Shown piece by piece: positions 4,449-56,308 of a DNA stretch of 64,000 bases. A program made the translations under genes and the position numbers. The number at the start of each line of letters is the position of its first letter. The stretch's first letter is position 1. Source of the stretch: Arthonia radiata (taxonomy: Eukaryota; Ascomycota; Arthoniomycetes; Arthoniales; Arthoniaceae); contig PSQN01000010.1 in the NCBI GenBank assembly GCA_002989075.1, positions 744,001-808,000 on the forward strand. Direction: 5' to 3'. The notes beneath the pieces are model-generated. The model had not been told where the DNA came from, did no database searches, and saw only the letters and a program-made list of their open reading frames with translations.

Positions 4449-5561
4449 ATGAGCTCCAAGGCATATGCAGTGCTGGCGCTGGCACTGAGCGTAGCCGCTC
4501 AATCATCATCGTGAGTGCGGTTCGTCGTGGGATATAGCTTTTGATAGCTAACATACGGCCTTAGGCCAACCCTGTCAACCATCACATACACCTCATGCAC
4601 CTCGACCACACCATCAGTTACCGTCACGCAATCATGCCACGAGTGTGAAGACATGACAAGCTCCTCTCCAACCGTCCACGAATCGACATACACGATGACC
4701 GTAACGGAACCGTGCCCGGAAGCGTCAGAGTCCGGCTACATGACCGTCAACACAATCACCGTCACGGAGTCCTGCACTGGCGCCACTCCATCCTTCACCG
4801 GCGGCCTACCACCTCAGTACACGACCGCAACCGTGACATGCCATGAGTGCGCATCCACCCCAATGGCGATGCCAGCCACGTACACCTCACTCCCATCGGG
4901 CTGGTCTGGCCCAACGCCATCACCAATGATGTCGTCTATGCCCTCGCCTATGGAATCCCCCATGATGCCAGCCTCGTGGATGCCCTCACCGATGCCTCCA
5001 ATGGAATCTCCCATGGCTTCCAGCGGTATGCCAATGCCCGCACCGATGGCTTCAGGTGGTATGCCCATGCCCTCGCCAATGGCTTCAGGTGGCATGCCCA
5101 TGCCCGCACCGATGGCGTCCGGCGGCATGCCCGCTCCTGCGCCCGCAGCACCAGCGGAATCACCCATGCCCATAACATCTGGCGGCATGCCTGCTCCTAT
5201 GTCGGCACCGATGGCCTCAGGCGGCATGCCGGCACCCACAATGCCTATGCCCGCTCCGGCTGCCCCGTACATGCCGGAGTCCTCCTCACACAAGGCTAAA
5301 GCGGCCACGACGATCTGCCCCGAGGGCATGATGAACGGCTCTGGCGTTTGCGCTTCCCCTATCGTCACGACCGTGGGTGTCACGGACGCTCACAGAACAG
5401 GCATGCCAGTCACTGGTGGATGCGAAGGGGGTGAGATGGGCGAGGCGTGTGCGACGCCGAGTCCGCATGCATGGTACAAAGGCGCGGCAGGGCGTGTGGG
5501 CCCAAGCGTGTGGGTAGGGCTGGCGATGGGTCTGGTGGGCTTGGTCGTTGTGGGATTGTGA
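4449..5561 (+). CDS. Secreted Ser/Thr/Met/Pro-repeat protein, probable GPI-anchored wall protein
   Basis: Two exons (4449-4510 and 4565-5561) join across a 54-bp intron with donor GTGAGT, branch GCTAAC and acceptor TTAG, giving 352 residues. Exon 1 supplies a signal peptide (MSSKAYAVLALALSVAAQSS). The N-terminal half has paired cysteines in Thr-rich strings of the form TVTxSC. Residues about 130-245 are a degenerate tandem repeat of MASGGMPMPxP. The C-terminus has a small-residue cleavage region (KGAAGRVG) followed by a hydrophobic tail (VWVGLAMGLVGLVVVGL), the layout of a GPI-attachment signal. A cell-surface or wall-matrix role is inferred from architecture; no enzyme domain is present. The repeat leaves the antisense strand open for 189 codons, which I treat as a shadow. 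The 3' end switches to a G-rich coding strand. Confidence 0.8.
5030..5260 (+). repeat. Imperfect tandem repeat coding for MASGGMPMPxP units
   Basis: Units of roughly 30-36 bases (ATGGCTTCAGGTGGTATGCC-like, third positions varying) follow each other within the coding region. Such tracts change length readily between strains and often set the stalk length of wall proteins. The exact copy number depends on where degenerate units are cut. Confidence 0.7.
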
Positions 5562-5962
5562 TCTGATGAAGTGGGGTCGTCTGTTTTGTGCAGTGAGGTA
5601 ATGATTCGAGTTTCTGTGGCTTTGTTTCGTGTTTGATAGGGTGTTTAGCTGAATGAATGGTATTTCTTAGTGCTTGGGTTCTCGGTCTGATGATGGGTCG
5701 CCGATTACGGGCCTTGAGGAAAGTTATGTGATTTAAATTTGTCCCAAAGTCTTCCCTTCTCTCTGTTGTTGATATCGAGATCACGTGCATCTTAAGGATA
5801 GACTGAGAACAAGGCCATGATATGTGTGCGCTTTCCACATCAGCAGCGATTGTAGACATCTATACAAGCCTGGTATTCAATTTCCACACAGACGCCACCG
5901 ATCCATCTCCCATCATCCTCCGCTTATAAATTCATCACCACCCCAAACCGCTCACCACCACC
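5562..5962. other. Convergent intergenic region
   Basis: This separates two genes pointing toward each other (3' ends on both sides). It contains only 3'-flank-like, AT-richer sequence; no gene or repeat was recognised. Confidence 0.45.
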
Positions 5963-6685
5963 CTACCTCAACGCCAACGTCAACCTCTCCAACCCCGCCC
6001 CCAACCCCAACCAATCACTCCCCCCCGCCGTCGTCGTCGGCTCCAACATCCCCGCCCTCGCCTCCCCATCCTCCTTCACCAACCCCTCCTCATCTTCCCG
6101 CTTCCTCTTTCTTACCTCCACCAATTCCGCCCGCATCAGCACCATCACCTTCTTACTAACCTTCCCCTCCTTAATTCCACCCTTCCCCTTCCCCGCCACC
6201 AACCCCGCCAGCGCCTCCTCCCGCCCCACATTCCCCCGCCTCATCGCCTCCCCCACCAGCTCGTCCTTCTGCTTGGCAGTTTTCTCCTTCCTCGACGCCG
6301 CCCGCGCTTCCTGCGAGAGACGCCGCTTCGATTTCTGCTGCACTAGCACCTCCTCCGCTTGCTCGCGGGTTAGATTCAGTTCCCGCATTTGGGCTTGCAT
6401 GCGCGTTTCGTGCCGCGCTGCGGATTTCTCCTGTTTGGTTAGGCTGGCCTGCTCGTGCGTTTGGCGTTTTAGCGATTTCTGGCGGGTGAGTTCGGATTCG
6501 GCTGCGGGGCCGGTGAGGCCGGTTTGGGCGGAGAGTTTGGCGAGGCGGGTTGAGTGCGCGGGTCTGTTGCGTTTGCGGGTGCGGTGGGCGGGTTTGGGGG
6601 GTTTGGTTATGCCGGTGGGTTTGGAGGCGGTGTGCGCGGTTTTGGGTGGTCGGGGGTTAGCGAGGCTTAAGCCTTCCATGTCCAT
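5963..6685 (-). CDS. Basic coiled-coil-like protein, unknown function
   Basis: Single exon, 240 residues, not recognised. The start is the first ATG (MDMEGLSLANPRPPKTAHTA). Residues 1-60 are Pro/Lys/Arg-rich; about 60-200 are highly charged and likely helical, with runs such as TRMQAQMRELNLTREQAEEV and KSKRRLSQEARAASRKEKTA. The C-terminus ends in a short Leu/Gly-rich segment (LGLGAGLERLTLALR). Nucleolar or ribosome-biogenesis proteins often look like this, but no domain confirms it. Third-position use changes strongly along the gene: the coding strand is C-rich at the 5' end and G-rich at the 3' end. Coding status rests on length, open frame and composition. Confidence 0.55.
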   Translation of the reverse strand: MDMEGLSLANPRPPKTAHTASKPTGITKPPKPAHRTRKRNRPAHSTRLAKLSAQTGLTGPAAESELTRQKSLKRQTHEQASLTKQEKSAARHETRMQAQMRELNLTREQAEEVLVQQKSKRRLSQEARAASRKEKTAKQKDELVGEAMRRGNVGREEALAGLVAGKGKGGIKEGKVSKKVMVLMRAELVEVRKRKREDEEGLVKEDGEARAGMLEPTTTAGGSDWLGLGAGLERLTLALR

Positions 6686-7540
6686 TTGGAGGAGCGGGGA
6701 GTAGGTGCTGGAATTGGGTATCGGGTGGTGGTGTGGTTTGTGTTAGTGTTCGTGGAGAGTGGTGGTGGTTTGTTTTAGAAATGAGAGTTGTTGTCCAGTG
6801 ATGATTGGTGGCTCTGAATGATCGTTGTGCTTTTGGTGATGTTCGGTGTTGAGTGAGAGTGAAGATTGGATTCCTCGAACGCTGGCGAAAATTATATGCG
6901 GGAGGTGCCGGTTTGGTGTTTCACGAGTCAGGATGGGAGATCTACGGTACGCTAGTCAGCCTTACCCGCCGGTCCCGCTCTCTCTTTGGATGATGAATTC
7001 GAGCACTGGAACTGCCTAAACGGTCAACTACATTGTTTTGCGCATCCTAATGGATCCGATCACACCGGTTATTCAGAGACTGTCAAGTAATGTAAGAACG
7101 AGACTGACACTGTAGGACTGCTGAGAACGTTACGATCTAAGGGTCAAGGGTTGTTGCGGTACGCTAGCTAGCCCTATTGCGGCGCAAGCCTAAGCTTAAC
7201 TTGCAAATCTTTGTGTGACCGCGTGCGAACACTCTCGAACATACTCCGTACTCAAGTCTTGACAACGATGGCTACAATGACCGTTTCCAGGGCTGAGGTC
7301 ATAAAGGGCTAAAACATTGCCCATTTATTTCTCAGGGACGATTGAGGTCCGCGGCGAGCGACGATGCATAGTGACTCAGAGTGCTCAAAGTCTTGCATAG
7401 CCTCAAGGGTAGGTACATAGGCAAGAAGCAACAATGCATGCGCCTTTGCCTGCACATAGATCTTGCGCTTTATCCACGATATATCACGCGTAGGTGATCC
7501 CATCATTGCACCACACTTTTAAGATCGAAAGCCGGTGATC
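6686..7540. other. Divergent intergenic region with a two-copy near-repeat
   Basis: This lies between two genes pointing outward, so both promoters should be here. Two related 21-mers at 6944-6964 and 7156-7176 share the core CGGTACGCTAG and 17 of 21 positions. No gene was recognised; the short frames lack motifs. Confidence 0.45.
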
Positions 7541-9055
7541 ATGGGCAAGCCGCGCAAATCCTCCAAGAGAGAAGACAAAGCGTCTTCCACGGTAGCGGAG
7601 ATCGAAAGCGAGAAACGACGAAAGAGCAACGTGAAAGTTGACTTTGAGATCGATGGCCGCAAGCTGGAAGGAGGCGGGCAGCTACTGCGCGTCGCTTTGT
7701 GTCTCTCCGCCTTGACGGAGAAATCCATTCACGTCACAAATATTCGAGGTAACCGCCAAGGTCAGCGTGGACTCAAGAATCAGCATCTAGCCTGTGCTGA
7801 GGCCCTCGCCGCGGCATGCGACGCTTACACTTACATTGAGGGTGCAAGGGTCGGAAGCCAGGATCTGCTCCTCACGTTTGGACCTCGGAAAAATGTTGAT
7901 GGGTTAACGTATAGCATTACACACAATGGAGAGGAAATCACTGTCCGAAGACTGCGGATCAATTTGCCAACACCAGGAGCGATTACCTTGGTACTGCAGG
8001 CTCTTCTACCCTACCTTCTCTTCGCCAAAGCAACGACCGCAACAGTGCTGAGCGTACGAGGTGGCACGCACACCACTTCATCGCCCAGCATCGACTACAT
8101 TGACTCCGTGCTACTCCCAAACCTAGTTTCGTTTGGCATTCCATCTTGGTGCCTTCAACGCCTCTCGCCGTCCGAACTGCAGCGCACCTTCACAACGTTT
8201 GGCCAGGTAGACTATCTAGTCCGTCCTTTGTCAGATCACTCTTTACGATTGCAGGCCCCTCAAGTTCCTCTCACTTTACCCGAGCCTACAGAGGATGTTA
8301 GCGCAACCGGAGAAATACACGCATACGTCGTATCCAGCTCATCCGCTGACCGATCGAAAAGTCTTGAGGCTATGTCTTACTATCTTGCCAGCTCCATCTT
8401 CTCATCCTCAACCTTCCAGAGCTTTGACATCGTTCGAACACATTTCGCTACCGTAGGATCGCCATCCGTCCAAACTCGTGTCAACCGAAGAGACGACGAA
8501 CATCTCTCATATGAACCTTTTGCTATCGAAACAGGCAAGTCTCGGACCACGTACGTTCTCTTAGTCGCCATACGAAATGATGGGATGAGGATAGGCGCAG
8601 ATCACAGGCAGACATGGTCAAACAAATCTCGGTCGGACAAACCCCGTCAGGACTTGAACGACGGCTCACTGGATAGCGAATGCAAGCGTGCGGCAACTTC
8701 AGCGGTTGCTGCTCTCACGCAAAGCTGGCAAGGATGCGAGCGTTGTGGGACGAATATGGACGAACACATGCGGGATCAAGTCATTATCTTTCTTGGTTTA
8801 CTTGGGGGCAGGATAGCTACTCCAATCCTCTCTAGCAGCGATGAGAGGGGCGAAGATCCCACCCCTGGGGATACTGAGGGCACGCACGGCCTCACCTTGC
8901 ACGCTCAGACGGCAATCTGGGTGACAAAGCTCATGCTTGGAGTTGAGTTCGACGAAGATGGTGCAGGTGTGAAAGAGGGCTGGTTAGCAAAGCAAGAGCA
9001 GGAGCGCAAGCTCGCTGAGCAGCTCCAGTCAATGGACTTCGATGATCAAGCGTAA
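7541..9055 (+). CDS. RNA 3'-terminal phosphate cyclase family protein (RtcA-type)
   Basis: Family members convert RNA 3'-phosphates to 2',3'-cyclic phosphates through an adenylated histidine. The start is the ATG of MGKPRKSSKRED; an in-frame GTG six bases upstream is not credible in a fungus. A basic 30-residue lead is followed by IDGRKLEGGGQLLRVALCLS, the family signature of the active RtcA branch, then IRGNRQGQRGLKNQHLA and RGGTHTTSSPSIDYI. Near the C-terminus, LTLHAQTAIW carries the histidine at the position of the catalytic His. The 504-residue length exceeds the usual 340-400. The surplus lies in the basic lead and in linkers at about 255-400 and near 450. It is more like RTCA than the rRNA-processing paralogue Rcl1, which lacks the catalytic His, but the insertions make substrate assignment uncertain. 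Confidence 0.85.
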   Translation: MGKPRKSSKREDKASSTVAEIESEKRRKSNVKVDFEIDGRKLEGGGQLLRVALCLSALTEKSIHVTNIRGNRQGQRGLKNQHLACAEALAAACDAYTYIEGARVGSQDLLLTFGPRKNVDGLTYSITHNGEEITVRRLRINLPTPGAITLVLQALLPYLLFAKATTATVLSVRGGTHTTSSPSIDYIDSVLLPNLVSFGIPSWCLQRLSPSELQRTFTTFGQVDYLVRPLSDHSLRLQAPQVPLTLPEPTEDVSATGEIHAYVVSSSSADRSKSLEAMSYYLASSIFSSSTFQSFDIVRTHFATVGSPSVQTRVNRRDDEHLSYEPFAIETGKSRTTYVLLVAIRNDGMRIGADHRQTWSNKSRSDKPRQDLNDGSLDSECKRAATSAVAALTQSWQGCERCGTNMDEHMRDQVIIFLGLLGGRIATPILSSSDERGEDPTPGDTEGTHGLTLHAQTAIWVTKLMLGVEFDEDGAGVKEGWLAKQEQERKLAEQLQSMDFDDQA

Positions 9056-9170: not shown

Positions 9171-11087
9171 CTAGTAAATCCCACTAGCCCGCGCACTCCG
9201 CCACTTCTTGGGCACCATCGGCGTCTGCGGCACGCCCGAATCATACATCCGCGTCACCTCATTGATTTCCTCATAAAACGCCGTATCCCGCGTCTCGCCA
9301 TCCGCCATACGCCGATACCCCACGGGCTTCTTGTAATGCTCCGGCACAGCCGGCATCGGCGGCGCCGTCTTCTCCTTCGCGTCGCTGTACGGATTGCCGA
9401 TCGTGTATCCGCTTATCGGCCGTGAATCGCTGGGATAGATGCTGCTAGGCGGTCGCGCAAACGGACCTGTGTAGTTCGTGAGGTCAACGTCGAAGACCGT
9501 GCTAGCGGTGCTGGCTGGACGCATCGGGCCGGTCAAGGAGGTAAGGTCCTGGCCCACGGCTTTGCTGACCCGTCGATCTGCGAGGCCCGGGTACTTGTCA
9601 GCGCATTTCCGGCACACTTCAACATTAGCCATCGGGGCGTGCTCGTCGCAGACGCAGCACAGCGCCCCTATCTTTGTTTTCTTCCCATGGATGCTCTGCC
9701 GCAGCCGCCGCTCGAGCTTCTCCTCCGCCTGCGCCAGTTCAAGATCCTTCTGCGCTTGATCCCGCTGCAGCGCCTTAGCGAAAACAGTGTTGTTCTTCAG
9801 GCGCTCCTGCTCGTCGTGCTCTGCGCGCTTATCCGCTTCCTTGCGATCGGCCTTTTGGCGCTGGATGATGTCTGCGCGCTTTTTGGAGGTGACTTCAAGG
9901 GCTTCGTCTTCGACGCCGGAGCAGAAGAAGGAGAGCTCGGAGACGTCGGAAGGTTGGCGCTGGAGGGGGTGCGCGAGCTTGTCCATGAGTTTTGAAGCGG
10001 AGGGTTTTTTAGAGTGGTGGGAGGAGGCGGTGGCGGTTGTGGTGGTTGATTGGAGCGAGGCGTGCGGGGAGGCGTGGGTGCTGGTGGGGACGGGTTTGCG
10101 GGCGGGGATGGTGGTGGGTTTTGTGATGGAGGGGACGAAGGCTGTGGGGTTGCCTGGGAGGGGCGTGGGTGTGTAGTCTGTTGGTCGAGTCGGGACCGGC
10201 GGTGGCTTGAAGTCCGTGGCGGCCTTTTTGTTGGAGAGCTCGAGGAAGTTGCTCCATGTTGTGCCGGATGTGTCGCGGTTCTTGGAGTAGTCGAAACCAG
10301 CTGGCTTTTGCTCCTGATGTTGTGGGACATTGACGTAGCCGGTGGGCCGGTGGTCTTGAGGTGTTTGTGGGGCCATAAACGGAAGGATGCTGGCCGCAAG
10401 TGGTGGTTTGCCGTGGCTGTTCTTCTTGGGAGCATGAGAAAAGGCCACAGGAGCCGGAGTCTTGATTGACGGAGCCTGGCTGTTAGCAGTCGCCGGACGA
10501 GTCTGAGATGAAGTTGAAGGACGACGAGACTTACGAGCAGTCTCGCTGCCTGTGAGCTTGCGATCCATCCAGTTGAAAAAGCGGGTTATGCTTCCGCTAC
10601 GCTTGCGGCTTCCATCTCGTTGTTGAATGGACTGGCGTCTAGGCCTACCTTCACGCTGCGTGCGATCGCGCTTCTCTTCTTGCTGCTTTTCATAGTCAGC
10701 ACGCAGCTTGTCCATCTGCTTTTTGCTATATGGCTCGCTATGGTCAGTGGGCTTGCTTGCAGCGGGTTTCTGGTTATGAGGACCTGCCCGCTGATAATTT
10801 GTGTACGGGATCTTGATCTGATCCTGGCTGAAGGGTTCTGCGCGTGCACCGTCAGCTGGAGCACGGTTTTTGTACTCAGGAGGAATGGTTGAGTAGACAA
10901 TACCGTAGCTGCTCTGACGACCCTCGTGTGGGTTCTTCTGAGGGCGTGGCTGGCGCGCTTGAGGAGTGTTCATGTGGGGTTGCGCTGGTTGTAGAGGGAT
11001 TCGCTGAGGTTCGCGCCAGGCATCCTCGCGAATCTGCGTGCTGCGCTTTGAGTTGGGTGATGAGACGCCGCTATTGGTTGCGGGCAT
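9171..11087 (-). CDS. Large disordered protein with a C-terminal C4 zinc-ribbon-like site
   Basis: Single exon, 638 residues, not recognised. The first 390 residues are Pro/Ser/Gln/Lys-rich and probably disordered. A charged helical stretch at about 400-480 (RQKADRKEADKRAEHDEQER and following) looks like a coiled coil. It runs straight into CCVCDEHAPMANVEVCRKCA, a CxxC-x(12)-CxxC pair that could bind one zinc ion, followed by a conserved-looking DKYPGLADRRVSK. The tail is Pro/Tyr-rich with repeated TGPxxRP strings (LTGPMRPAS, YTGPFARPP). A scaffold or adaptor role would fit, but that is inference. Long antisense frames here are shadows of strong base skew. It ends 115 bp from the cyclase stop, tail-to-tail. 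Confidence 0.65.
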   Translation of the reverse strand: MPATNSGVSSPNSKRSTQIREDAWREPQRIPLQPAQPHMNTPQARQPRPQKNPHEGRQSSYGIVYSTIPPEYKNRAPADGARAEPFSQDQIKIPYTNYQRAGPHNQKPAASKPTDHSEPYSKKQMDKLRADYEKQQEEKRDRTQREGRPRRQSIQQRDGSRKRSGSITRFFNWMDRKLTGSETARKSRRPSTSSQTRPATANSQAPSIKTPAPVAFSHAPKKNSHGKPPLAASILPFMAPQTPQDHRPTGYVNVPQHQEQKPAGFDYSKNRDTSGTTWSNFLELSNKKAATDFKPPPVPTRPTDYTPTPLPGNPTAFVPSITKPTTIPARKPVPTSTHASPHASLQSTTTTATASSHHSKKPSASKLMDKLAHPLQRQPSDVSELSFFCSGVEDEALEVTSKKRADIIQRQKADRKEADKRAEHDEQERLKNNTVFAKALQRDQAQKDLELAQAEEKLERRLRQSIHGKKTKIGALCCVCDEHAPMANVEVCRKCADKYPGLADRRVSKAVGQDLTSLTGPMRPASTASTVFDVDLTNYTGPFARPPSSIYPSDSRPISGYTIGNPYSDAKEKTAPPMPAVPEHYKKPVGYRRMADGETRDTAFYEEINEVTRMYDSGVPQTPMVPKKWRSARASGIY

Positions 11088-15429: not shown

Positions 15430-15917
15430 CTACAGCATTTCGTCAGAAGTCTTCAAGAGCTGGTAAAAGCAACAAGATATGTCCCAATATAGAGCTGCTG
15501 CGCCGTTGCTTCTGAAGTTGAGAAGCTTCGAAAAGTATGCAAGTGATGGCGTGCGCACATTGCTTGGGCAAAGGAGACATGTCATGAACTTACAGCGGCT
15601 GAAGGTTAAGTTGACTTTGGGACAGCGAGCGGATCGGAGAGACTACGAGAGGAAGACGCGTGCTGAAGAAAAATTGAGCTGGTTGCCAGAGCGACAAGCG
15701 AGATCGCTCGATCGAAGACGAGCGAGGCAACAAACACTTTGGGAAGGTGTAAGCGATATGACTAATTTACAGAGTGAACAAGTGAGGATCAAGCAGATGA
15801 GTGTCACATGCTAGCCAGAACCTCATTTCACTCCAATCTAAGTCGGCGTCCAGACTTCAACCGTCAACAGATTCCATCGGTCCTGGTCAATTACCATCTG
15901 CGCCGAGTCTCTCCATC
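15430..15917. other. Divergent promoter region
   Basis: Head-to-head spacing between the Hsp70-like gene (-) and the 872-residue gene (+). A + strand frame of about 110 codons crosses it but has no motif and is interpreted as leader sequence. Confidence 0.45.
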
Positions 15918-19028: not shown

Positions 19029-22000
19029 CTACAACTCTACACTCATACTCCTCTCCCTGCCTTTCCCAGCCGCACTTTTCTCACCACCACCGCCCTGTCT
19101 CGCAGCACGCTCAGCCCTCTTCCTCGCCTTCCGCTCCCTCTTCTCCGCCTTCCTCAGCCGTCGTTCCTCTTCGTCCCGTTCTTCGCGTTTCCGTGCTTTC
19201 CGCTCAGCTTTGCGCTGCCGGCGCTCTTGCTCCTCAAGTTCGGCGGCTTCGGCGGCTCTGCGGTCTTTCTTCTCCCGCTTGCGTTGACGTCGAGCTCCGG
19301 CGGCTTCGCCATCCTCAGCGGCGCCAGCGTGGGTCAGCTGCGTATTGATTGCAACAGGTTGGTAAATGGGGAAAGGGCGTTGCTCGGCCAGTGTGGCGGG
19401 CAGGGCGGGTTGCTCTTGCGTCTTCATCGCTTCTCGCCTGGCTTGCTCGTTCCTCCGCTTTCGCTGGCGGCGGCTGAGCTTCGGTTCGGATTGAGTGGGC
19501 TCTTGAGGCGATGTGTGTGGGGACGGAGATTGCGGAGGAGTAGCCACGTCGGCTTGCGCAGGTGCTGGGGAGGATGGCTCTGCATCACAAGCGTGTTCTG
19601 GGGCCGGGATGATGCTATCTCGCTTGTTGTTGCGCCTGCGTTTCTTCTTGGAGGCTGTGGGCGCTGGAGAGAATTCCTGGGGCTGTTGGTGGGGAGCAGG
19701 AGCCTCAGCGGACGGACCGTAGTCGACAAAGTAGCCGTTAAAGCTTTCAGTGGAGTCAGCCGGAGAAGGGGCACGTGGATCGGGTGAGGCCGAAGCAGGT
19801 GGGTCGTCTGCCCCAGAGGCGTCATCGGGATCCTGTAGATCTTGTTCGGACGGGGTCGCCGATGCTTGATAGGTGACCAATCCGGGCTGAGGAGCAATAT
19901 TGTCACGTTCTACCGACTTCATGACCGGGGAGTCGTGGTCCGGCAGAGATTGCGAGGTTGCCGTATTGCTGAGGCCAGTAAAAACTCTGTACGTGTCGAG
20001 TACGGAGTCGGCATCAGCGTACTTGCTGTCTGGCAACCGAGGTATGACGATCTCTTGTAGTCGCCGCTCGAACGTGGGTGGCATTCTTTGTGAGCTCTCA
20101 GGAGATGAATTTAGGCTGGTTCGATTCTGAGCAGAAGCCATTTCGATGGCAGACGGAGGGGACCCGCCAGTATCATCGTTAGGAGTACCGTCTTCGAAGT
20201 GTTTCGATGAGTCGTCGTTGCCAATGCGATGACCTGCGGCACTTCCGCTCGAGGAAGTTAGATTGCTGTGGCCCGAAGTCACGCTCATAGTTTCCCGAGC
20301 GGCCTCGCCTAATTCGAGAGAAGGTTCTCTTTGCCTAATCGGCATAGGGGAAGAAACTCGGTTTGGCGATTGTTCCGAGGATTCAGTAGCAGCGTCGTCC
20401 CCAGCTACATGTCCAGCCTTACGATCACGCCGATTCTCAGAGGGGGCATGTGATCGCATGGCAGATCGTGCTAAGCTTGACTCAACGAGACGCTCGAGCT
20501 CCAATTCGGATGCAGACAATCCGTCTGCATTGGCATCCGAATCTTGGTCTGCTTTACTGCTGGAGAGGCTTGGGGGTCGTATCTCTTCTTTTGAGTCCGA
20601 GGATGGGCGCGCAATCTGAGCTGTGTGATGAGACTCGAGATCCTGGCTTCCTTTGGTTTTGCTTCGCCGTCGAGGCTCAAATGGTGCCGTCTGCGGTGGC
20701 GCATTCCGGTGTGACGCACTTGAATTGACCTCTCCAGATGTTGACCGCTCATCCTTCTTTTGGCCATCAGGTTGCACACTCGCATCACGTGCTCCTGGTG
20801 ACCCAAGTCGCACTGGCGCAGGACTTGCCGGGTCTTCTGCCCCTGCCTCTGTTCCTGCTCCTGCCTGTGCTTCGCTTGCGTCGTCCAGCAATACTTCATC
20901 CAAGGAAGCGAAAGGTTTGGCTGCCATCTGCGCTTCAGCCCGATCTCTCGCCGCACGTCTTTGAGGTTGGCTGTTGAGTATGTCCTCACGATTCATATGA
21001 TCGTTTGCAAGCTTAGCAACCTCGGCTTTCGTTCTTTGAGCGCAGCGACTTGATGAATTGGGCACGGGCAGTGGTTCTATCTTATAACCACCTCCTGACA
21101 GACTTGATGAATTGGACACGGGCAGTGGTTCTATCTTATAACCACCTCCTGACAAACGCTTCGGAACGATGACAGACACAATGGTTGAGTTTTTATCATC
21201 GCCTGTTTTATTTCCGTCGGTCGCAAGAGCCTTCGCATTGGTGACAGCCTTGCTCCAGGTCGCCTGTTGTGCATCTTCCAGTTGGCCTGATACAAGTTTC
21301 AGGTCAGACTTTGACTGCGCCTTACCTACGTCTGCGCTAATCAGTGCCCTCAAGAGAGAGAGACTATCATCGTTGGTGCGAGACTCATGCCCGAGCCAAC
21401 GGAGTGCGTATGCTTCGACGCCGAGACCGCGCCGAAAAAGTGATGAGCTTGCGGCCTCGACTATATCTGGCAAAGGGCGCTCGGTTTGCGCATCTCGACT
21501 AGTATCGGAGGCTTCCGGGATCGCGGACCCTCGAGGGCTGTGCTGAGGATCTGGAGAGGTATTGCGGCTGTTTACAGGGCTTGTTTTCTTCTTTGTAAAA
21601 TGACCTTTATTATCCCGGATCGTATGTCGCGTCGATGAAGCCTCAGAGGTCGTGCTCTCGTTATGCTTGAGCTTGGGGCGAGAACGAGATGCGCCGGTCC
21701 TGGAACGGCCATTCTCGTCTCTTGCGGCGTCTTTGTTTCTTCCAGTATTGCTGTCAACACTTCCATCGTTCTCCTGCTTGAGGTGCAAGCTTGAGTCTCG
21801 TCGCGCTGATGTAGTCGCGTCTTGTACGTGGGTACAAGAGGCTGAGGTTGACTTCGACCGTCTTACAGAGCTACTGCTGCCGGCGAGAAAGCGTCCAGTT
21901 TGGTCCCTGGCTGGAGTGATGGGAGGCACAACGTAAGCGGTAGTATCAGCCCCAAGCGGTATGAATCGACCGTAGCAGTCGCGAACGTTGTGACTGGTCG

Positions 22001-22913
22001 AAGGAGTCGGCCTCCGCCCGTCACTGTGGTCTGAGCGACTTCTTCTAGGAGTGGCTCTGGGGCGCCAATCCCCTAACGCGATTTGACTATCTCGATCTTG
22101 AGCTGCTGATCTTGTCGCGGCGGTACTTGTGGGCGGGTGTGCGCCAATATCGTTTGTGACCTCTCGTTTCCCTTGAAGTGGTGCTTGCTTTGGGGTCGCA
22201 CCGTCGTTGCCTACACTTTTAGACCTCGTTGGTGTCAGAGAGCTGCTCCTTGGTGCAAAGCGACCAGTGCCATCGCGCAGAGCGTGCTTAGAAGGGCTCG
22301 GTCGCTCAGCCGTGCTATTGAGTGACGCCCGTCTGTTCGACGTAGACCCAGACGTAATATCGCGCAGAGGCTGGCTGGACGAGATAGCTTCGGTCTTTGG
22401 CGCGAATCGACCAGTGTTGTCTCGAATCGAATGTTTGACAGCAGGAGAGCCATTGGTAGTGGCTGTCGTCAATCTCTGCCTTTTCGAGCTGGCGGGCTGT
22501 ATGCTGCTTCCGTCTTGAACCGCGCCAGTGCCCCCGCCGGGCTCTCCTGGACTAGAGAAAGCTGCCGACTGTCTCTTCCTCTTTTTGGTACCCTCGCCCT
22601 GCTCTTGAATTGGCATGTCTACCTCAGGTGAAGGGGAACCTCGGAAGCGCTCGCGAGAGTGAGACTCTGAATTGCTGGTCGCGCGCACTCCAGCATCTTG
22701 CGTTGCAGAAGGTTCAGGCGATCGAAAAGGTCCGTGTTGTAGTAGGCCTTTGTTGGATTCTTGTACATTCACCTCGTCCTTGCGCGGTCTATTGATAGGC
22801 GTGAATTGATTTTGGGGCAATGGACTCGAATGCACGAAACTTGCGTCGGCGGAGGAAGATGGTACAGGTGTCTCCTCTGCGGCTTTGAATGGGAACCAGT
22901 TGGGAAGTCGCAT
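19029..22913 (-). CDS. Large disordered protein with repeated RDxxGRF motifs
   Basis: The start is set at MRLPNWFPFKAAEETPVPSS. The frame is open upstream to 23210, but that part reads like non-coding sequence and lacks the Ser/Pro character of the rest. The product is 1,294 residues. Between about 130 and 480 a short motif recurs: IRDNTGRFAPK, LRDGTGRFAPR, VRDCYGRFIPL, ARDQTGRFLAG, ARDENGRSRTG and IRDNKGHFTKK, so R-D-x-x-G-R-F with decay. The middle (ADIVEAASSSLFRRGLGVEA through ALRWLGHESR) may be one ordered segment. A 54-bp duplication encodes GGGYKIEPLPV twice. The C-terminal 100 residues are a Lys/Arg/Glu-rich helix (RKAERKARKREERDEEERRL). GRF-containing basic motifs recall AT-hook-like minor-groove contacts, but function is unknown. 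Confidence 0.65.
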   Translation of the reverse strand: MRLPNWFPFKAAEETPVPSSSADASFVHSSPLPQNQFTPINRPRKDEVNVQESNKGLLQHGPFRSPEPSATQDAGVRATSNSESHSRERFRGSPSPEVDMPIQEQGEGTKKRKRQSAAFSSPGEPGGGTGAVQDGSSIQPASSKRQRLTTATTNGSPAVKHSIRDNTGRFAPKTEAISSSQPLRDITSGSTSNRRASLNSTAERPSPSKHALRDGTGRFAPRSSSLTPTRSKSVGNDGATPKQAPLQGKREVTNDIGAHPPTSTAATRSAAQDRDSQIALGDWRPRATPRRSRSDHSDGRRPTPSTSHNVRDCYGRFIPLGADTTAYVVPPITPARDQTGRFLAGSSSSVRRSKSTSASCTHVQDATTSARRDSSLHLKQENDGSVDSNTGRNKDAARDENGRSRTGASRSRPKLKHNESTTSEASSTRHTIRDNKGHFTKKKTSPVNSRNTSPDPQHSPRGSAIPEASDTSRDAQTERPLPDIVEAASSSLFRRGLGVEAYALRWLGHESRTNDDSLSLLRALISADVGKAQSKSDLKLVSGQLEDAQQATWSKAVTNAKALATDGNKTGDDKNSTIVSVIVPKRLSGGGYKIEPLPVSNSSSLSGGGYKIEPLPVPNSSSRCAQRTKAEVAKLANDHMNREDILNSQPQRRAARDRAEAQMAAKPFASLDEVLLDDASEAQAGAGTEAGAEDPASPAPVRLGSPGARDASVQPDGQKKDERSTSGEVNSSASHRNAPPQTAPFEPRRRSKTKGSQDLESHHTAQIARPSSDSKEEIRPPSLSSSKADQDSDANADGLSASELELERLVESSLARSAMRSHAPSENRRDRKAGHVAGDDAATESSEQSPNRVSSPMPIRQREPSLELGEAARETMSVTSGHSNLTSSSGSAAGHRIGNDDSSKHFEDGTPNDDTGGSPPSAIEMASAQNRTSLNSSPESSQRMPPTFERRLQEIVIPRLPDSKYADADSVLDTYRVFTGLSNTATSQSLPDHDSPVMKSVERDNIAPQPGLVTYQASATPSEQDLQDPDDASGADDPPASASPDPRAPSPADSTESFNGYFVDYGPSAEAPAPHQQPQEFSPAPTASKKKRRRNNKRDSIIPAPEHACDAEPSSPAPAQADVATPPQSPSPHTSPQEPTQSEPKLSRRQRKRRNEQARREAMKTQEQPALPATLAEQRPFPIYQPVAINTQLTHAGAAEDGEAAGARRQRKREKKDRRAAEAAELEEQERRQRKAERKARKREERDEEERRLRKAEKRERKARKRAERAARQGGGGEKSAAGKGRERSMSVEL
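21047..21154 (-). repeat. 54-bp direct tandem duplication inside a coding region
   Basis: Two adjacent 54-bp units (21047-21100 and 21101-21154) differ at a single base, visible as GGGCAC versus GGACAC. The length is a multiple of three, so the frame is kept and 18 residues are duplicated (GGGYKIEPLPV-S/P-NSSS). The near identity shows a recent slippage or recombination event, or possibly an assembly duplication. Confidence 0.9.
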
Positions 22914-36928: not shown

Positions 36929-37435
36929 TCACCCGCTACTCACCCTCCCACTACCCCTCCCCACAAACGCCTCAACCCTCCTCCCGTCTCCACTCCACAT
37001 ATCACTCCACCCCACCCCTCTCTCCTCAACCGCCTCGTCACACACGACAAACCACAGCCCGCCCCGCACGCGGAAAACATGCGCGTACACGCTCGGTTTC
37101 ACAGAATGCGGGCCGCCCCGCAGGCTTTGCGCGCGCTCCCAGCGGCCTGTCGCTACGCGGAGTGATCCGTCTGGGCTGTAGAGGACTGTGTCGAAGGCAC
37201 CGGTGGAGAGGAGGGCGTTGAACTTTTGGGTGAGGAGTGCGGATTTGTGGGCGGCGGAGTGGGGGGTGAGGGAGGTCCAGGCGAGGGTGTGGATTATGAG
37301 GGCGGTGGTGATGGTGGTGGTCGGGGCGGAGGAAGGGTGTGTGTGGTTCAGATGGGTGGGGAGGCGGATGATGTGGCTGATGGTGGTGTGGGGGCTGGGG
37401 TCTTGGTGCAGGGCGGTGAGGGAGAAGAGGAACAT
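36929..37435 (-). CDS. Doubtful hypothetical protein in a strongly skewed block
   Basis: An open frame of 168 residues starting MFLFSLTALHQDPSPHTTIS. The segment FDTVLYSPDGSLRVATGRWE to YAHVFRVRGGLWFVVCDEAV looks protein-like. The first 60 residues are His/Thr/Pro-rich, as expected from a C-rich strand. Overlapping + frames reach 235 codons in Pro/His-rich low complexity. The minus frame is preferred because its C-to-G change along the coding strand matches neighbouring accepted genes. No family recognised; it may be an artefact of base composition. Confidence 0.3.
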   Translation of the reverse strand: MFLFSLTALHQDPSPHTTISHIIRLPTHLNHTHPSSAPTTTITTALIIHTLAWTSLTPHSAAHKSALLTQKFNALLSTGAFDTVLYSPDGSLRVATGRWERAQSLRGGPHSVKPSVYAHVFRVRGGLWFVVCDEAVEERGVGWSDMWSGDGRRVEAFVGRGSGRVSSG

Positions 37436-38261
37436 CGCTGTTGTGGTGCAGGCCAGAAATAATTAATCAGCGCTGCCGTCGCCAGTCGAGGTGTCTAGCT
37501 CACACACTTGTAAGATTCGTAACGCGCAATGTTGAAAGGCATTGGGACGACATTGGTGAGGGACTGACGCCAGCTGTCGCGAAGATATCGGCCGTGTTGG
37601 GAAAGTCACCTCTGCGAATGCGCGAGCGCTGTCTATCTGGTGAGTACATTAGACGCCGCGACTATGACGATCGGGCTAAACTGCGTACGCACTGAGGCCG
37701 TGACGCGGTGATCTCGCTTTGGCTGTCCCACGGAGCCGCCGTTGTAGACTGTCGCACGTCTGCCTGCCATCGCATTGCTCGAACGGACGAGTTGGGTCAT
37801 AAACCAATTCCTGCATGCCCTGGGACTGAAAACATGCCACCATGTTCCCTCATTCCATGCGATTGACGTGGCCAAACAAACCGTGTCTCCCCTCGAAGCA
37901 ACGAGACCTCCGGGCGAAGACATCGCGCCGGCTGATCTTAAGCTGAGACGTGACACGGCTGTGACGCTGGAGGCGGAGACGCGCGCGACGTTCTTGCCTT
38001 GGTGCCGTGGTAGAGTTGCTAGGTTGATGACAGAGGCGATGCAGAATGGCTATGTTCGAGGATGAGGAGCTCCGGCTTCGATGCGTAGATCTGTCGCTTT
38101 CCACGGCTGGCGTTGGTGTGCGCGAGCGCGAAGAGCGGGTGTCAGCTCGATTAGCGCGAAGGGCGTTGCGAGAACGCGGTGTGGTGCTGAAGGAGGAGAG
38201 GGGTTCGTGGTCCGCATGGATTCGCATATCGTGAGGCGATGATAATGAGATGTGTGCCTTT

Positions 38262-38288: not shown

Positions 38289-38572
38289 TGGTTCCGAGGA
38301 GGAGCGTGCATGGGTGACAGTATGGGCGTGATAAGATTCTGTGTGTAGATGTGAGAGAGAGAGAGAGAGCGTGAATGTAAGTGTGAATGTATCTAAGGGC
38401 GAAGGGACTGTATGAATGAGCCGGGACCGTAGGCGGGCTAAGTGAATCTACTAGTGAAGCGTAAGTATCACGTTAGAAGGAACCCACAACCGCAGAGAAG
38501 CCTTAGTGAGCATTGGGATATATTCAAACCTGCACTGTGGGAACCAATGGATATTACTCTACAAGCCTAGCG

Positions 38573-50611: not shown

Positions 50612-53128
50612 ATGGACCGGCAGAGGGATGCAATCGTTGGCTTTGCGATATCTGGACATTATCCCGAAGACAACGACGGAACGCTCTCTGAGAGCTTGCA
50701 GTCAACTTCAATATCTCACGCTCGAGAAAGTCTCGCGCAGGCCAGGCAAGAGGCGGAAACAAACCTCAGGAACATCAGCCAGCAGGTCGCGCCCGATGTC
50801 GATGGCTGGATCGAACGCGCGAAACAGCTACAAGCCGACATTGGACAGTCCCGCAGCATCGCTCGAGCAATAGTAGAACAATCGGAACGGGCAAAAGATA
50901 TTCAAGCAAAGCGGACAGATGCTGCTAAAAACTCACAGCTCCTCAAAGCAGAGACTGCTTTCCATGGGGGCCTTGGGAATACCCTTCGAAATATCAGGAC
51001 TGCCAGAGATCAGCTTGGCGAAGCGAAGAAGGCCGTGGCGGATGGCTCAACGTACAAAGCATTCAAGACTCTACAGGCGCTCGAGGAAACGTTACCAAGC
51101 CTCGGCACTGTGGGAACGACGAACGCTCTCGATTTACTGCGACAAAGGGTGACAGACCTGCGCAGCAGCGTTGTTGAGCAGGCTCGTAATCTCACAAGGC
51201 GAGCTATCGATGTTGAGCGAACAGAACAGCGTCTAATAGTACGGAAGCGAGTGCAATCCATCGCAGGTCAAGAAGTTGGCATAGAAGATACTGTTCGATT
51301 GTCATCCAGCTTGGGGCTTTTGCGCGAAGACATGTCGAGAGTATCTTCTGATCTCGAAGTCGCTGTCACAGGACCAATCTTTCTGAATGGCACTTTCATT
51401 ACGAGAGCCTCATTCGTACAGACGTCAGATGGCGCCCTGCAAGTCTCGCGCTCTGATGCACAAAGCACGAGCAACAATCTAGTCGAGGATCTCATCAAAA
51501 CTTTAAGGTTTTTGCACGACGAAATGCCAAAGCCGGCACGTGACATGCTAGCAGACATGCTTGTGCCCTCTGTGACAGCACATCTCATCTCACAAAAGCT
51601 CCCGGCAGCGCTTGCTGTGAATACCAAGGACACTGGGCACATTGATCGTGTCGTGGCTGAAGTAAGAAAGCTTGCCGATACGCTAAGATCGTTATCCTGG
51701 AGTGGCTGTACAGATTTGGAGGAATGGGCGGATAACATTGCCAAAGCCTGGCTCGCGAGGCGGAGAGAAGCCTCCATCGACGATGTTCGTGGCCTCCTTG
51801 GCAGAGCTCTAGGAACTCGCAAGAGTGTCGAGCATGTTGAGACTCAGGTCGTATCGGCCGATGATGCCATGGTCCAGAATGAGACGGTGCCCACCGATGA
51901 CTGGGATGAAGAGTGGGCAGAAGACGAGGCAGATAACGACGCCTCACGTGCAGTGGAGCATCATCGAGAGGACGAAGAAGAAGACTGGGGAGGCTGGGAT
52001 GCTGACGAGCAGCACACCGCCGGATCCACCACAACGCATGCTAATGGCAGACCAACAAAGTCATTGGATATTGAAGAAAACGAAGGTGCTGGTTGGGATG
52101 ACTGGGACGAGCAAAAACCCACCACCAGTGCCACACAGGCGCCGAAATCCAAGCAAGCTCCGCCAAAAACCAACGGCAACAGCCTTCCGACCCGCAGCAA
52201 GCCAACTCAGCACGAAGTCACTCTCCGCGAAACCTACACAACAACCGCCCTACCTGACGAAATTTACGCCAATATCACCACCCTCATCAGCGACGCACAA
52301 ACCCTCCGCTCACCGTCCTACTCCTCCTCCCCAATCGCACCCGCAGCACCCATCCTCTACACCATTCCCACAATCGCCATCTCCGCCTTCCGCGCCCTCG
52401 CCCCACCCGCCTACGAGCTCCTCCAAGGCGGCAACATGCTCCTCTTCAACGACAGCAACGGCCTCTCCTCCCAACTCAAAGCCCTCCACTCCGATCTCAA
52501 CACCTCCTCCGACCCTGGCCTCTCCCGCCTCAAGCTCCCCTGCGACATCCAATCCCTCGAAGCCTTCGCCCGCCGCAACTACAGCAAAGCCATGGAAGAA
52601 CAACGCACCATCCTCCGCGACCTCATCGACAACGCCCAGGGCTTCGCCAACTGCACCACCCCGCCCTACAAAACCGCCTGCGACGACGCCGTCAGTATGA
52701 CGGTCGCGCACCTCCGCTCCACCGCGGAGCTCTGGAAAACCATCCTAAGCAGGAACGCATGGCTCCAGGCGCTCGGCTCGCTCCTCGGCACCGTCATCGG
52801 CAAGATGCTCGTCGACATCGAGGAGATGAGCGACATCGGCGCCGAGGAGAGTACTCAGCTGAAGCGGTACATCATGGACGTGTCGGCGCTGCAGGAGTTA
52901 TTTGTACACGAGGGGCGGGAGACGGTGGGGCTGTACGTGGGGCAGTGGTTTAAGTTCCAGTATCTGGCGGAGGTGCTGGAGAGCAATTTGGAGGATATCA
53001 AGTTTTTGTGGCGGGAGGGGGGGTTGAGGGGCGAATTTGAGATGGAGGAGGTGGTGGAGTTGGTGGAGGCGTTGTTTGCGGATGGGGAGAGGAGGAGGAG
53101 GGCGATTGGGGAGATAAGGAGGGGTTGA
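50612..53128 (+). CDS. ZW10/Dsl1-type vesicle tether subunit
   Basis: Single exon, 838 residues. The N-terminal half is a string of helices with coiled coil (ARESLAQARQEAETNLRNIS, IGQSRSIARAIVEQSERAKD), as in the ZW10 N-terminal domain. The central linker (about 425-520) carries three Trp-acidic clusters: TDDWDEEWAEDEAD, EEDWGGWDADEQ and GWDDWDEQKP. In yeast Dsl1 such Trp motifs in an acidic lasso bind coatomer subunits, so COPI capture at the ER is inferred. The C-terminal half resembles the ZW10/Dsl1 helical module (YTTTALPDEIYANITTLISD, ISAFRALAPPAYELLQGGNM, KRYIMDVSALQELFVHEGRE). A kinetochore role as in animals is less likely for a fungus. Codon use shifts from C-ending (about 52230-52740) to G-ending (after 52890). 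The stop is 70 bp from the next gene's 3' end. Confidence 0.82.
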   Translation: MDRQRDAIVGFAISGHYPEDNDGTLSESLQSTSISHARESLAQARQEAETNLRNISQQVAPDVDGWIERAKQLQADIGQSRSIARAIVEQSERAKDIQAKRTDAAKNSQLLKAETAFHGGLGNTLRNIRTARDQLGEAKKAVADGSTYKAFKTLQALEETLPSLGTVGTTNALDLLRQRVTDLRSSVVEQARNLTRRAIDVERTEQRLIVRKRVQSIAGQEVGIEDTVRLSSSLGLLREDMSRVSSDLEVAVTGPIFLNGTFITRASFVQTSDGALQVSRSDAQSTSNNLVEDLIKTLRFLHDEMPKPARDMLADMLVPSVTAHLISQKLPAALAVNTKDTGHIDRVVAEVRKLADTLRSLSWSGCTDLEEWADNIAKAWLARRREASIDDVRGLLGRALGTRKSVEHVETQVVSADDAMVQNETVPTDDWDEEWAEDEADNDASRAVEHHREDEEEDWGGWDADEQHTAGSTTTHANGRPTKSLDIEENEGAGWDDWDEQKPTTSATQAPKSKQAPPKTNGNSLPTRSKPTQHEVTLRETYTTTALPDEIYANITTLISDAQTLRSPSYSSSPIAPAAPILYTIPTIAISAFRALAPPAYELLQGGNMLLFNDSNGLSSQLKALHSDLNTSSDPGLSRLKLPCDIQSLEAFARRNYSKAMEEQRTILRDLIDNAQGFANCTTPPYKTACDDAVSMTVAHLRSTAELWKTILSRNAWLQALGSLLGTVIGKMLVDIEEMSDIGAEESTQLKRYIMDVSALQELFVHEGRETVGLYVGQWFKFQYLAEVLESNLEDIKFLWREGGLRGEFEMEEVVELVEALFADGERRRRAIGEIRRG

Positions 53129-53198: not shown

Positions 53199-53531
53199 TC
53201 ATGGCTTCTGCTGTGTCTCCATCGCACAACGACCCACGAATCTCCGCCCAGCGCTCTCGCCTGCCAACCACTCCGCAGGCGCAAACAGCTTGAACATGCC
53301 CACCCTCCATAGAGTCGGCACACTCGCCCTCATCGCATCCTCCAGCTTTATCTTCTCAGACTCCTGCGCACCCTCTGAAGCGTAGAGAGCGTCGTATCGC
53401 TTGACGTTGGCCAGCAGCGCGCCGATGGTACCTGTGTGGATCTTCTCGCCCGACGGCAGCGTGACGGTGGGCATGGCGGTCCCAAGGGTGGCGCTGTTGA
53501 TTTCTTGGAGGGTGGGCGGGGGGTTGGACAT
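53199..53531 (-). CDS. Small conserved-looking protein, unknown function
   Basis: Single exon, 110 residues, intact. It reads as one compact domain: TLQEINSATLGTAMPTVTLP, SGEKIHTGTIGALLANVKRY, DAMRASVPTLWRVGMFKLFA and PAEWLAGESAGRRFVGRCAM. The alternation of helix with a short strand pair and the C-terminal ESAGRRFVG motif give the impression of a widespread small family, also seen in bacteria. I cannot name it with confidence. No signal peptide, membrane span or zinc site is present. It lies tail-to-tail with the ZW10-type gene. Confidence 0.65.
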   Translation of the reverse strand: MSNPPPTLQEINSATLGTAMPTVTLPSGEKIHTGTIGALLANVKRYDALYASEGAQESEKIKLEDAMRASVPTLWRVGMFKLFAPAEWLAGESAGRRFVGRCAMETQQKP

Positions 53532-54275
53532 TGTGGTGATAATATTGAAGAGGGCTGGGGCAAAGGGGGTTGCGCGAGAGAACGGGTTGCTTGAGGGTGG
53601 GTGGATATGCGGGTGCCGGAAGTCACTTGGGCACTGAGAAGTAGAGGAGTGGTTTTGAAGCTGTTGAACGGGCTCAAAGACAGATGATACACGGTTTCAC
53701 GACTTTTGCGCCCTTTGTATCGCAATGAGGCCGTGTCATCACCGTAACAGCCCGCACTCAGATCCTCCGTCCAAAGCTCCGGAAGTCACTTTCTACAACA
53801 CCGACATATTGTCCCGAGTACACCTCCATCTATCACCATCTCAACGATCAACCAAAAGTCTACGCCAAGTTTCTGGTTCAGTCCACAAAGCGCTCACATC
53901 CTTCGCACGTGACGGACCAGCATTCTGACGAGATGGACTCGTGAAGAGCTCCCCGAACCAGCTCATGAGCTCGTACCACACCTCGTGTCAGCAGACGCGT
54001 GCCCCGCCCCCGCTTTCAGCCTCTCTAGGTTACTTGAGTCTCTTCTCTCGTATCTTCCCTTGACTACCGTCTCTTCGCCCGCAATTCATCCCATCCCATC
54101 ACACTTCACTACAGTCGGCTCAACAGCTCCAATTCAAGCGCAGACGCAAGCCTCGCCCCACCGCTCGCAGCATCATCACCTTTCCCAACAAATAAGACTC
54201 GCAATAGAGCCGCGAGCGGCCATACCAGAGACACACATATCAAGCAAACAGCAAGCAGGTGTGAAAGACGAGATC
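53532..54275. other. Upstream region shared by two divergent small genes
   Basis: This lies between the 110-residue gene (-) and the zinc-ribbon microprotein (+). A CACGTG E-box-type hexamer lies near 53907. A long + frame reaches into the microprotein start but its upstream part is Pro/Ser/His-rich and looks like leader sequence. Confidence 0.45.
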
Positions 54276-54459: not shown

Positions 54460-55730
54460 ACACCCTTCCCAGCTTCCACGAAACGATGGATGCCAATGGA
54501 TCACGAATGCATGAAGGAGGATCAGTGAGATGGTACGGATTTGAAGGAGGTTCTTTCATGTTCATTTGGTGGACGAGTTGGGGGGGATAAGATTTGTGCG
54601 TGTGATGAACACGAACGAGGAATGATAGATGAAACGACCGACACGCCGACTTCTTGCTGTGTTGCTCATCCTAAGTATGGCGGTCTTCGTGCTTGCGTCT
54701 ATTGTAGCATGTCGTGAATGTCTACCAGTGTCGAGAAGTACGAACACATGTGCCTATGGGTGCTGCAGAAAATGAATCACGTTTGCTGTACGCTTGCTAT
54801 ACTCGAGCTATACTTTCGCTTTGCTACCTCACAATCCCTGCTTCGTCGCTCAGCAAATCTTTTCCCGTCTTGATGAGCGACGAGAAGATCCAGCGCCCGC
54901 TCAAACTAAGTCCTCATACACGCTCATTCTGCCCATCACGAAGCACACCAGGAGCACATCACAACAGACCATATTATCATGAGGAGAGAGGAAGACAAGC
55001 TCCCAACCGACACGTACTAACACCTCCTTTCTCGATCATCCGCATGCCAAATTAGACTGTAACTGCTCCCGTCCAGCCGTGCGATTCAAGAGCATACACG
55101 CTGAGCAATGGCAGGTAGGAAACCGGCGTCAAATGCTAAACGAAGGCGTGACTGTAGAAGAGCGGCTGCGGTGTTCACGCTCCAGCTTGACAAGCAAATT
55201 CAGTGCTATGCTGAAATCTCACTGGTGGGGAGAAGCGAAGCTTAGAGGGTGTTTGGCTGGTGGGAAGCGGTGCTGACATTGAGCAGCTGCATGGGCTGAC
55301 AAGTGGCATTTATACGAATAAGGCAACGATCGTGCGATTTGCGGTGCCAGTGTTTGGGCTCAGACAGATAAGACGTGAGTATTGCTAAAGGACAGCAAAG
55401 CAGCTGGGATGAGAAGTCAGTGGTCGAGACGATTGGTATCAGGCAGGTGCGGTAGTATTGGTGAGGAAGGAGCATTGAAGAAATCACTGTGCACTGATAT
55501 GGCCTATACATAGGCAGTTTCATCTTATTTTCGAAAGTTATGGGTATAGGCTGAAGCGGTGGTGAGTACTCCAAGGCCGGTCATTGGATGCTCACAGTCA
55601 TGCTCGCTGAAATGCGTCAGCACGATAGCCTCCCCTAGCGCAACGATGCAGCGCCAGCCCTTCCCAATTTGCACCATCCCCAACACCTTCGCAAGCCATA
55701 ATGATAATCACATTGGACCACCAAAGCTCA
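54460..55730. other. Gene-poor region, nothing recognised
   Basis: About 1.3 kb with overlapping short frames of 60-113 codons on both strands, none with motifs or protein-like composition. The first part is the 3' flank of the microprotein gene. Confidence 0.45.
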
Positions 55731-56308
55731 TCACTCCACCCCGTCCGTCGACGCACTCCCCACACTGGCTCGACTCTCCTTACTCCCCCTTCTCCGTCCA
55801 CTCCCCATCTTCTCCAACGCCCTCCCCACAAAGCTGCCGCCCCTCTCCTTCTTCGGCCGCTCCTGACTGTTCACCTTCCCCAACCCCTCTTCATCCTCCA
55901 GCACCGCACTGCCCTCCTCATTCTCCATGACCTTGTGCTTGTTTCCCGCTCCGCCGCGCCCGGTCAACACGGTGCTCTCGACCTGGGCGTCTTTGCGCTT
56001 CACGGGCTCGAGGTCTTGGGCTTCGCGCGATTTCTTGGAGTCGCCGGAGACGATGTTGCCGGAGCCGCCGCGGCCGGTGGTGAAGCGCTGGTTCTTGATG
56101 GTGGGGGTTTCGAGGTCGGCGTCGTCGGAGGTGGTGGGCTTGGGCTTGGAGGAGCGCATGTTGCCTGTGGTGTGTAAGTATTTGCTAGTTCTGAAGTGGG
56201 CGAGGTTGTTTTGTGCGATGCGGTTGGAGAGGACGCAGGTGGGAGTGTGTGAGACGTACCGGCTCCGCCACGGCCTGTGGAAACGTTCGAGATCGTGCCG
56301 ATGGACAT
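55731..56308 (-). CDS. Par32-like protein with TGRGGxGN motifs
   Basis: Two exons (56308-56260 and 56164-55731) with a GTACGT donor and CACAG acceptor give 160 residues; the junction falls inside the first motif. The TGRGGAGN/TGRGGSGN motif occurs three times: STGRGGAG|N near 11-18, FTTGRGGSGN near 43 and VLTGRGGAGN near 82. These spaced repeats define the fungal family that includes yeast Par32, an otherwise disordered protein. Par32 is phosphorylated when TORC1 is inhibited and dampens the ammonium transporters Mep1 and Mep3. The rest is Lys/Ser/Glu-rich and ends with FVGRALEKMGSGRRRGSKES, a likely amphipathic helix and phosphosites. A nitrogen-signalling role is inferred from Par32. The coding strand is C-rich at the 5' end and G-rich at the 3' end. 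Confidence 0.8.

Follow-up and report, generated by a model that had tools for sequence, protein, structure and literature searches.

We found that genes in the 64,000-nucleotide stretch of DNA analysed here (the window, C6:744001-808000, within a 33.5-Mb genome of 16 contigs) and in a sample of the same genome carry switches of GC skew, (G-C)/(G+C), from C-rich to G-rich. This asymmetry lies in genes, leans towards their 3' ends and exchanges C and G, hardly touching A and T; in a minority of genes it is very steep. The switch is a pronounced example of a fungal pattern that is known but still unexplained, and replication origins are very unlikely to be its cause. Our preferred reading, which we hold to be probable, is a gene-anchored strand asymmetry, sampled genome-wide, that was left by strand-specific mutation or repair differing between the phases of transcription.

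We assign the window to the nuclear genome of a filamentous ascomycete on the strength of its introns (in the gene models) and of genes for a kinesin, a velvet factor and a DUF3602 protein. The control sample comprised 25 stretches of 10 kb (250 kb) drawn from all 16 contigs, two of them flanking the window. A small home-made two-strand gene finder, trained on the sequence itself, gave 134 gene models in the 314 kb of window plus sample; some models in the window are apparently fused or have doubtful 5' exons. Switches were called with window sizes (W) of 200, 300 and 500 and thresholds from 0.20 to 0.40, and chance was controlled with Markov-resampled windows (six resamples per setting) and, for single genes, with codon shuffling.

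Strength and direction of the skew switches

The original prediction had picked out C-rich blocks followed by G-rich blocks on the forward strand, and the skew indeed goes from negative to positive in all eight pairs. It changes from -0.76 to +0.60 between 5940-6270 and 6480-6780, from -0.59 to +0.65 in the pair starting at 36600-37000, from -0.52 to +0.42 in the pair starting at 52200-52700, from -0.63 to +0.39 between 55720-55950 and 56000-56220, from -0.38 to +0.55 between 53200-53330 and 53470-53640, from -0.39 to +0.28 between 19050-19290 and 19360-19850, and from -0.24 to +0.43 between 4600-5320 and 5400-5560; the change is weak on the C-rich side (-0.12 to +0.52) between 9180-9790 and 9870-10260. 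Chance as the source was ruled out by Markov resampling and codon shuffling. At W=300, the resamples held no switch in either direction at thresholds of 0.20, 0.25 and 0.30 (six each); at W=200, six resamples gave 9 C-to-G and 13 G-to-C switches at 0.20, one of each at 0.25 and none at 0.30. The real switches of the window and the 250-kb sample exceed those of shuffled sequence.

The order was first described as always the same, which is true in part: C-to-G is in excess among broad or strong switches, but G-to-C is equally common among moderate ones. At W=300 and a threshold of 0.25, there were 6 C-to-G versus 6 G-to-C switches in the window and 16 versus 14 in the sample, and moderate G-to-C switches lie at 5828, 53735 and 55628, within the very interval for which a single order had been claimed. 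Raising the threshold to 0.40 at W=300 gave 3 versus 1 in the window and 8 versus 1 in the sample, while W=500 at 0.25 gave 5 versus 3 and 12 versus 1, or 17 versus 4 together. The C-to-G excess therefore resides in the strength and width of the switches; upward and downward sign changes of skew must alternate along any sequence. A gene-independent count of G-free and C-free run patterns in window and sample did not separate the two directions. That the order is shared by genes on both strands had been taken as informative, but a C-to-G switch reads identically on both strands, being a mirror image of itself, so the shared order carries no strand information.

The switches are not peculiar to the window, as equally strong ones were seen on other contigs, in sampled stretches L027, L013, L020 and L031 (e.g., -0.51 to +0.59 near 6640 of L027 and -0.69 to +0.34 near 6860 of L020). 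The left flank of the window also has one, from -0.65 to +0.52 near 600 of stretch L025.

Position within genes and extent

Every one of the 17 strong C-to-G switches (W=500, threshold 0.25) falls within a gene model, as compared to two of the four G-to-C switches; models of 300 or more coding bases make up 61% of positions. The in-gene counts were 24 of 24 versus 4 of 13 at W=500 and 0.20, and 20 of 22 versus 7 of 20 at W=300 and 0.25. With a median distance of about 400 bases from switch to stop codon, a tie to gene 3' ends, offered earlier as an alternative to an origin, is borne out. Among the 22 switches with a known stop at W=500 and 0.20, 15 lie within 700 bases of it, while random positions in genes do so in 44% of cases; 14 of the 22 are nearer the stop than the start. 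RNA genes offer no such anchor in the window, where a tRNA scan (bacterial code) and an Rfam search at the gathering threshold both came back without hits.

The mean profile of 101 gene ends has a skew of -0.04 to -0.08 in the interval 500-1000 bases upstream of the stop, rises to +0.13 and +0.23 in the last two 100-base bins, stays at +0.097 in the first 100 bases after the stop and then turns negative again. At the other end, the 100 bases before the start codon have a mean skew of -0.134 (99 genes), and the pattern thus reaches beyond the coding region on both sides. Codon shuffling gave the same picture for single genes: between the first and the last 100 bases, skew increased significantly in 37 of 70 complete genes and decreased in none. 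Within the last 700 bases, a C-to-G switch was found in 24 of the 70 at p<=0.003 and in 37 at p<=0.05, as compared to G-to-C switches in 3 and 12, respectively.

A negative-then-positive sign is what a replication origin firing at the switch would leave, and a fixed origin was the reading first proposed. Around 22 switches, however, the mean skew is confined to about 500-600 bases on each side and is close to zero beyond, with a magnitude of no more than 0.10 up to 6 kb away (most stretches measure only 10 kb). The siting of all 17 strong switches inside genes and the G-to-C switches that follow within hundreds of bases also argue against origins, as do convergent pairs, 2 of 24 of which have a switch above 0.6 in both genes. 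Origins firing at the switches are thus a very improbable source of the skew.

Silent sites, base exchange and possible causes

All three codon positions take part in the change. As the check by codon position suggested at the outset now reveals, third and four-fold sites switch as well, and they exceed positions 1-2 in four of the six window genes examined. With distance counted in codons from the stop, four-fold sites of genes of at least 300 amino acids have skews of -0.09 to -0.33 beyond 99, -0.03 between 66 and 99, and +0.17 and +0.19 in the last two 33-codon bins. A four-fold switch above 1.0 was found from C to G in 24 of 85 genes and from G to C in four. In these 24 strongest genes the share of C drops from 0.55 to 0.16 and that of G climbs from 0.14 to 0.51, with A steady at 0.17 and T at 0.14-0.17; the C and G figures are extremes and not averages, since the genes were chosen for contrast. 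The AT skew of the last 1000 bases is likewise positive and nearly constant (+0.05 to +0.12). A silent-site exchange of C and G with flat A and T means that protein composition and simple C-to-T deamination are both insufficient.

Protein composition, with Pro/Ser/Thr-rich stretches followed by Gly/Glu-rich tails, would suit some proteins with biased tails; positions 1-2 switch too in the window genes examined, and silent sites do not lead in two of the six. The lead of third and four-fold sites in the other four, including a ZW10-like gene that ends in a Pfam domain, leaves this explanation hardly credible. Meiotic break hot spots, where GC-biased and strand-asymmetric repair would give a G+C-rich peak that is C-rich on its left and G-rich on its right, fit both the G+C peak found at the switches and their extent of about 500 bases per side. 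However, T-to-C and A-to-G repair would alter the AT skew, which hardly moves, and hot spots give no reason for a site a few hundred bases before stop codons; we regard them as quite unlikely.

A stronger competitor, which we still consider unlikely, is selection for a G-rich transcript end (C-avoidance, an R-loop or a G-rich pause element) that helps the polymerase to complete transcription or to terminate, chiefly where convergent genes lie close together. It is consistent with G-rich 3' ends that run slightly beyond the stop and with strong switches being commoner at convergent ends. Candidate R-loop start motifs, defined by a pattern of the QmRLFS type, also number 37 sense versus 15 antisense in the last 500 bases of 89 genes. 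These motif counts track base composition, however, and antisense motifs lead by 17 to 12 at -1000 to -500 and by 12 to 3 after the stop. Selection at the transcript end also leaves the C-rich block that precedes the switch unexplained. In the blocks of 14 chosen strong genes, GGG occurs 327 times versus 348.7 +- 8.2 in synonymous shuffles and CCC 242 times versus 294.6 +- 9.5. Selection for G runs was rejected on the GGG counts, and because both triplets are rarer than in shuffles, a composition effect is favoured over selected G-run structures; the scarcity of G runs likewise argues against selection for motifs of R-loops or G-quadruplexes.

The preferred reading of phase-dependent mutation or repair starts from a coding strand whose silent sites are C-biased for the greater part of the gene and turn G-biased in about the last 70 codons; for all sites together, the G bias covers the last 300 bases and extends about 100 bases past the stop. 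Strand-specific mutation or repair would differ between transcription phases, as in the mutational hypothesis of McLean and Tirosh, and we infer that the same applies here. A process converting C:G into G:C is most plausible. Rev1-type enzymes insert C opposite a gap left by base loss. As the exchange involves C and G only, base loss in exposed single-stranded DNA followed by such an insertion of C could serve as an example, which is our own suggestion. Weakly constrained genes would record the asymmetry most sharply, and transcription running in from a convergent neighbour, as antisense or read-through, may displace the switch.

Several observations weigh against this reading. Among the 24 strongest four-fold switches, eight are farther than 700 bases from the stop (16 within 700). 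Across 42 long genes, G-richness of the end and C-richness of the preceding part are uncorrelated (rho -0.18 to +0.10), so that the C-rich and G-rich blocks need not share one cause. Seven distinct Hsp70-family genes elsewhere behave unevenly over their last 300 bases, with four rising, one falling and two flat. G+C content peaks at 0.607 at the switch versus 0.53-0.55 farther out (22 switches), and a pure exchange of C and G leaves this unexplained. The gene models are home-made predictions, unchecked against transcripts, and transcription as the cause of the skew is something we infer.

Over the 101 gene ends, G+C climbs towards the 3' end and is highest 300-400 bases before the stop (0.571 versus 0.52 at -1500). 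As a separate observation on base composition, 600 bases around 4750 of the sampled stretch L009 (G000:C1:300001-310000) are AT-rich, with a G+C of 0.28; the first coding scan kept no segment there, and this may be an AT-rich repeat block.

Neighbouring genes and comparison with known systems

The strongest switches may be linked to convergent neighbours, which is a possibly new lead that we put forward tentatively, given the small numbers. Among ends whose neighbour has 300 or more coding bases, a switch above 0.6 was found at 14 of 54 in the convergent and 1 of 31 in the tandem arrangement (Fisher p 0.008); 6 of the 91 ends were left out of this count for a short neighbour, including that of the strong gene at 36929. 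With all 91 ends (58 convergent, 33 tandem), the counts are 24 versus 4 at a cut-off of 0.5 (p 0.004), 15 versus 1 at 0.6 (p 0.008), 10 versus 1 at 0.7 (p 0.052) and 8 versus 1 at 0.8 (p 0.15), and the best switch per end differs between the two orientations (Mann-Whitney p 0.009). Four-fold switches exceed 0.8 at 32 of 52 convergent versus 12 of 33 tandem ends (p 0.028), 1.0 at 18 versus 6 (p 0.14) and 1.2 at 11 versus 2 (p 0.07). Neither the skew of the last 300 bases (91 ends, p 0.47) nor the mean change from -900 to -500 to the last 300 bases (0.230 convergent versus 0.179 tandem, p 0.75) differs between orientations, and the switches of partners in 24 convergent pairs are uncorrelated (rho 0.13, p 0.56). 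We keep the link as a lead because the measures disagree, partners are uncorrelated, many cut-offs were tried and the gene models are unverified.

Distance to the neighbour gave a further trend. In 30 convergent pairs, the region 350-700 bases before the stop is G-richer when the neighbour is closer, at four-fold sites (rho -0.39, p 0.033) and at all sites (rho -0.35, p 0.056), while tandem genes have no distance trend (n 33-34, rho 0.13). Switch position and intergenic distance were related with rho -0.16 to -0.64 over 18 settings, nine of them at p<0.05. One doubtful extension is that the switch marks where the neighbour's transcription yields to the gene's own: silent sites would record the antisense overlap, the G-rich zone would end about 700 bases past the neighbour's stop, and C and G would be exchanged with A and T untouched.

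Several window genes that carry switches have a convergent neighbour. A gene for a Met/Pro/Ser-rich protein, originally called GPI-type, has its last exon at 4651..5561 on the + strand (model 3927-5561), and a Pfam search with its open reading frame (ORF), 4653-5561, gave no match. Its switch at about 5320-5360 lies some 200-240 bases 5' of the stop, with four-fold skew going from -0.32 to +0.42 and positions 1-2 changing about equally; by eye, a repeat of the type MASGGMPMPAP occupies 4900-5250, directly 5' of the switch. The next gene, convergent with it, is a single-exon gene of 240 amino acids (5963..6685, - strand, no Pfam match) that switches at about 6360, 398 bases before its stop, from -0.70 to +0.93 at four-fold sites. 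The single-exon gene at 9171..11087 (- strand, 638 amino acids, no Pfam match) switches at about 9830, some 660 bases before its stop, from -0.74 to +0.45 at four-fold sites, and is convergent with the gene at 7541-9055 (Pfam RNA 3'-terminal phosphate cyclase).

Another single-exon gene, 19029..22913 on the - strand (1294 amino acids, ORF without Pfam match), is convergent with 15479-18536 and switches at about 19300, some 286 bases before its stop. Here silent sites do not lead: four-fold skew goes from -0.28 to +0.08, and positions 1-2 from -0.30 to +0.35. Inspection of this protein by eye revealed an irregularly spaced motif of the type RD-x-x-GRF (e.g., RDNTGRFAPK, RDGTGRFAPR, RDCYGRFIPL and RDQTGRFLAG), and LSGGGYKIEPLPV is present twice. 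The last exon of the gene model 36929-38311, at 36929..37437 on the - strand, switches at about 37151, 223 bases before the stop, from -0.65 to +0.58; the 5' exons of this model are doubtful and it contains a few N, and its uncertain left neighbour (a 54-codon model) excluded it from counts requiring a neighbour of at least 300 bases. At 36758-36844, inside the C-rich block, inspection by eye showed an imperfect direct repeat some 40 bases long.

The ZW10-like gene (50612..53128, + strand, Pfam ZW10_C2) switches at about 52819, 309 bases before its stop, from -0.86 to +0.87 at four-fold sites. Its convergent neighbour, 70 bases away, is a short gene of 110 amino acids (53199..53531, - strand, Pfam DUF7709), where the C-rich block 53200-53330 is followed by the G-rich block 53470-53640. 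In the two-exon DUF3602 gene (55731..56308, - strand, 160 amino acids), the switch at about 55957 lies 227 bases before the stop, and four-fold skew changes from -0.82 to +0.62. The kinase, alcohol dehydrogenase (ADH)-like and Hsp70-like genes of the window had been described as free of switches, which by codon shuffling is true of the kinase (0.15, p 0.88) and not of the other two. The ADH-like gene, labelled from its translation (23214-25019), has a smaller switch of 0.54 (p 0.002), and the Hsp70-like gene, labelled by eye (12516-15429), one of 0.51 (p 0.002); no window sequence was among the matches listed by a search for the Hsp70 family.

The cause of gene-end skew was left open by McLean and Tirosh in 2011, and in the open-access literature we found no later resolution of it and no study of neighbour orientation and fungal GC skew. 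Near-complete silent-site switches that leave A and T nearly untouched make the cause testable and narrow the substitution to an exchange of C and G. The orientation and distance of the neighbour are variables that separate overlapping-transcript, termination and origin models. Codon-based gene finders and measures of codon usage may be misled near the ends of fungal genes.

In humans, Ginno and others (2013) reportedly found G-rich gene 3' ends that are linked to termination between close genes, and measured R-loops there, whereas the present asymmetry was read from sequence. The C bias of the coding strand at gene starts, with a mean of -0.13 over the 100 bases that precede the start codon in this genome, resembles the C-rich skew near gene starts of plants and some fungi (Fujimori and others 2005, PMC555766), although the abstract of that study treats 5' ends only.

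The closest known system is that of McLean and Tirosh (2011, PMC3315797), and the first impression that no described feature predicts such switches does not stand, as the gene-average form was published there. They report an average pattern of 5' C and 3' G in most fungi examined, with 64 species mentioned in a figure legend, which includes four-fold sites and untranslated regions (UTRs); AT skew is largely constant and positive, the skew pattern correlates weakly with expression, and 33% of C. albicans genes change significantly. Phase-specific mutation or repair in transcription, or avoidance of C late in transcripts, are the causes they propose. The pattern found here shares the 5' C and 3' G, the four-fold sites, the extension into UTRs and the near-flat AT skew, and its average resembles their fourth group. 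The gene-average pattern is thus already known, while its steepness in single genes is possibly new. As compared to the averages and gradients of that account, 37 of 70 genes change significantly here by a similar, not identical test, the switch at silent sites is almost complete in some single genes, and the orientation of the neighbour, absent from the text of theirs drawn on here, may matter.

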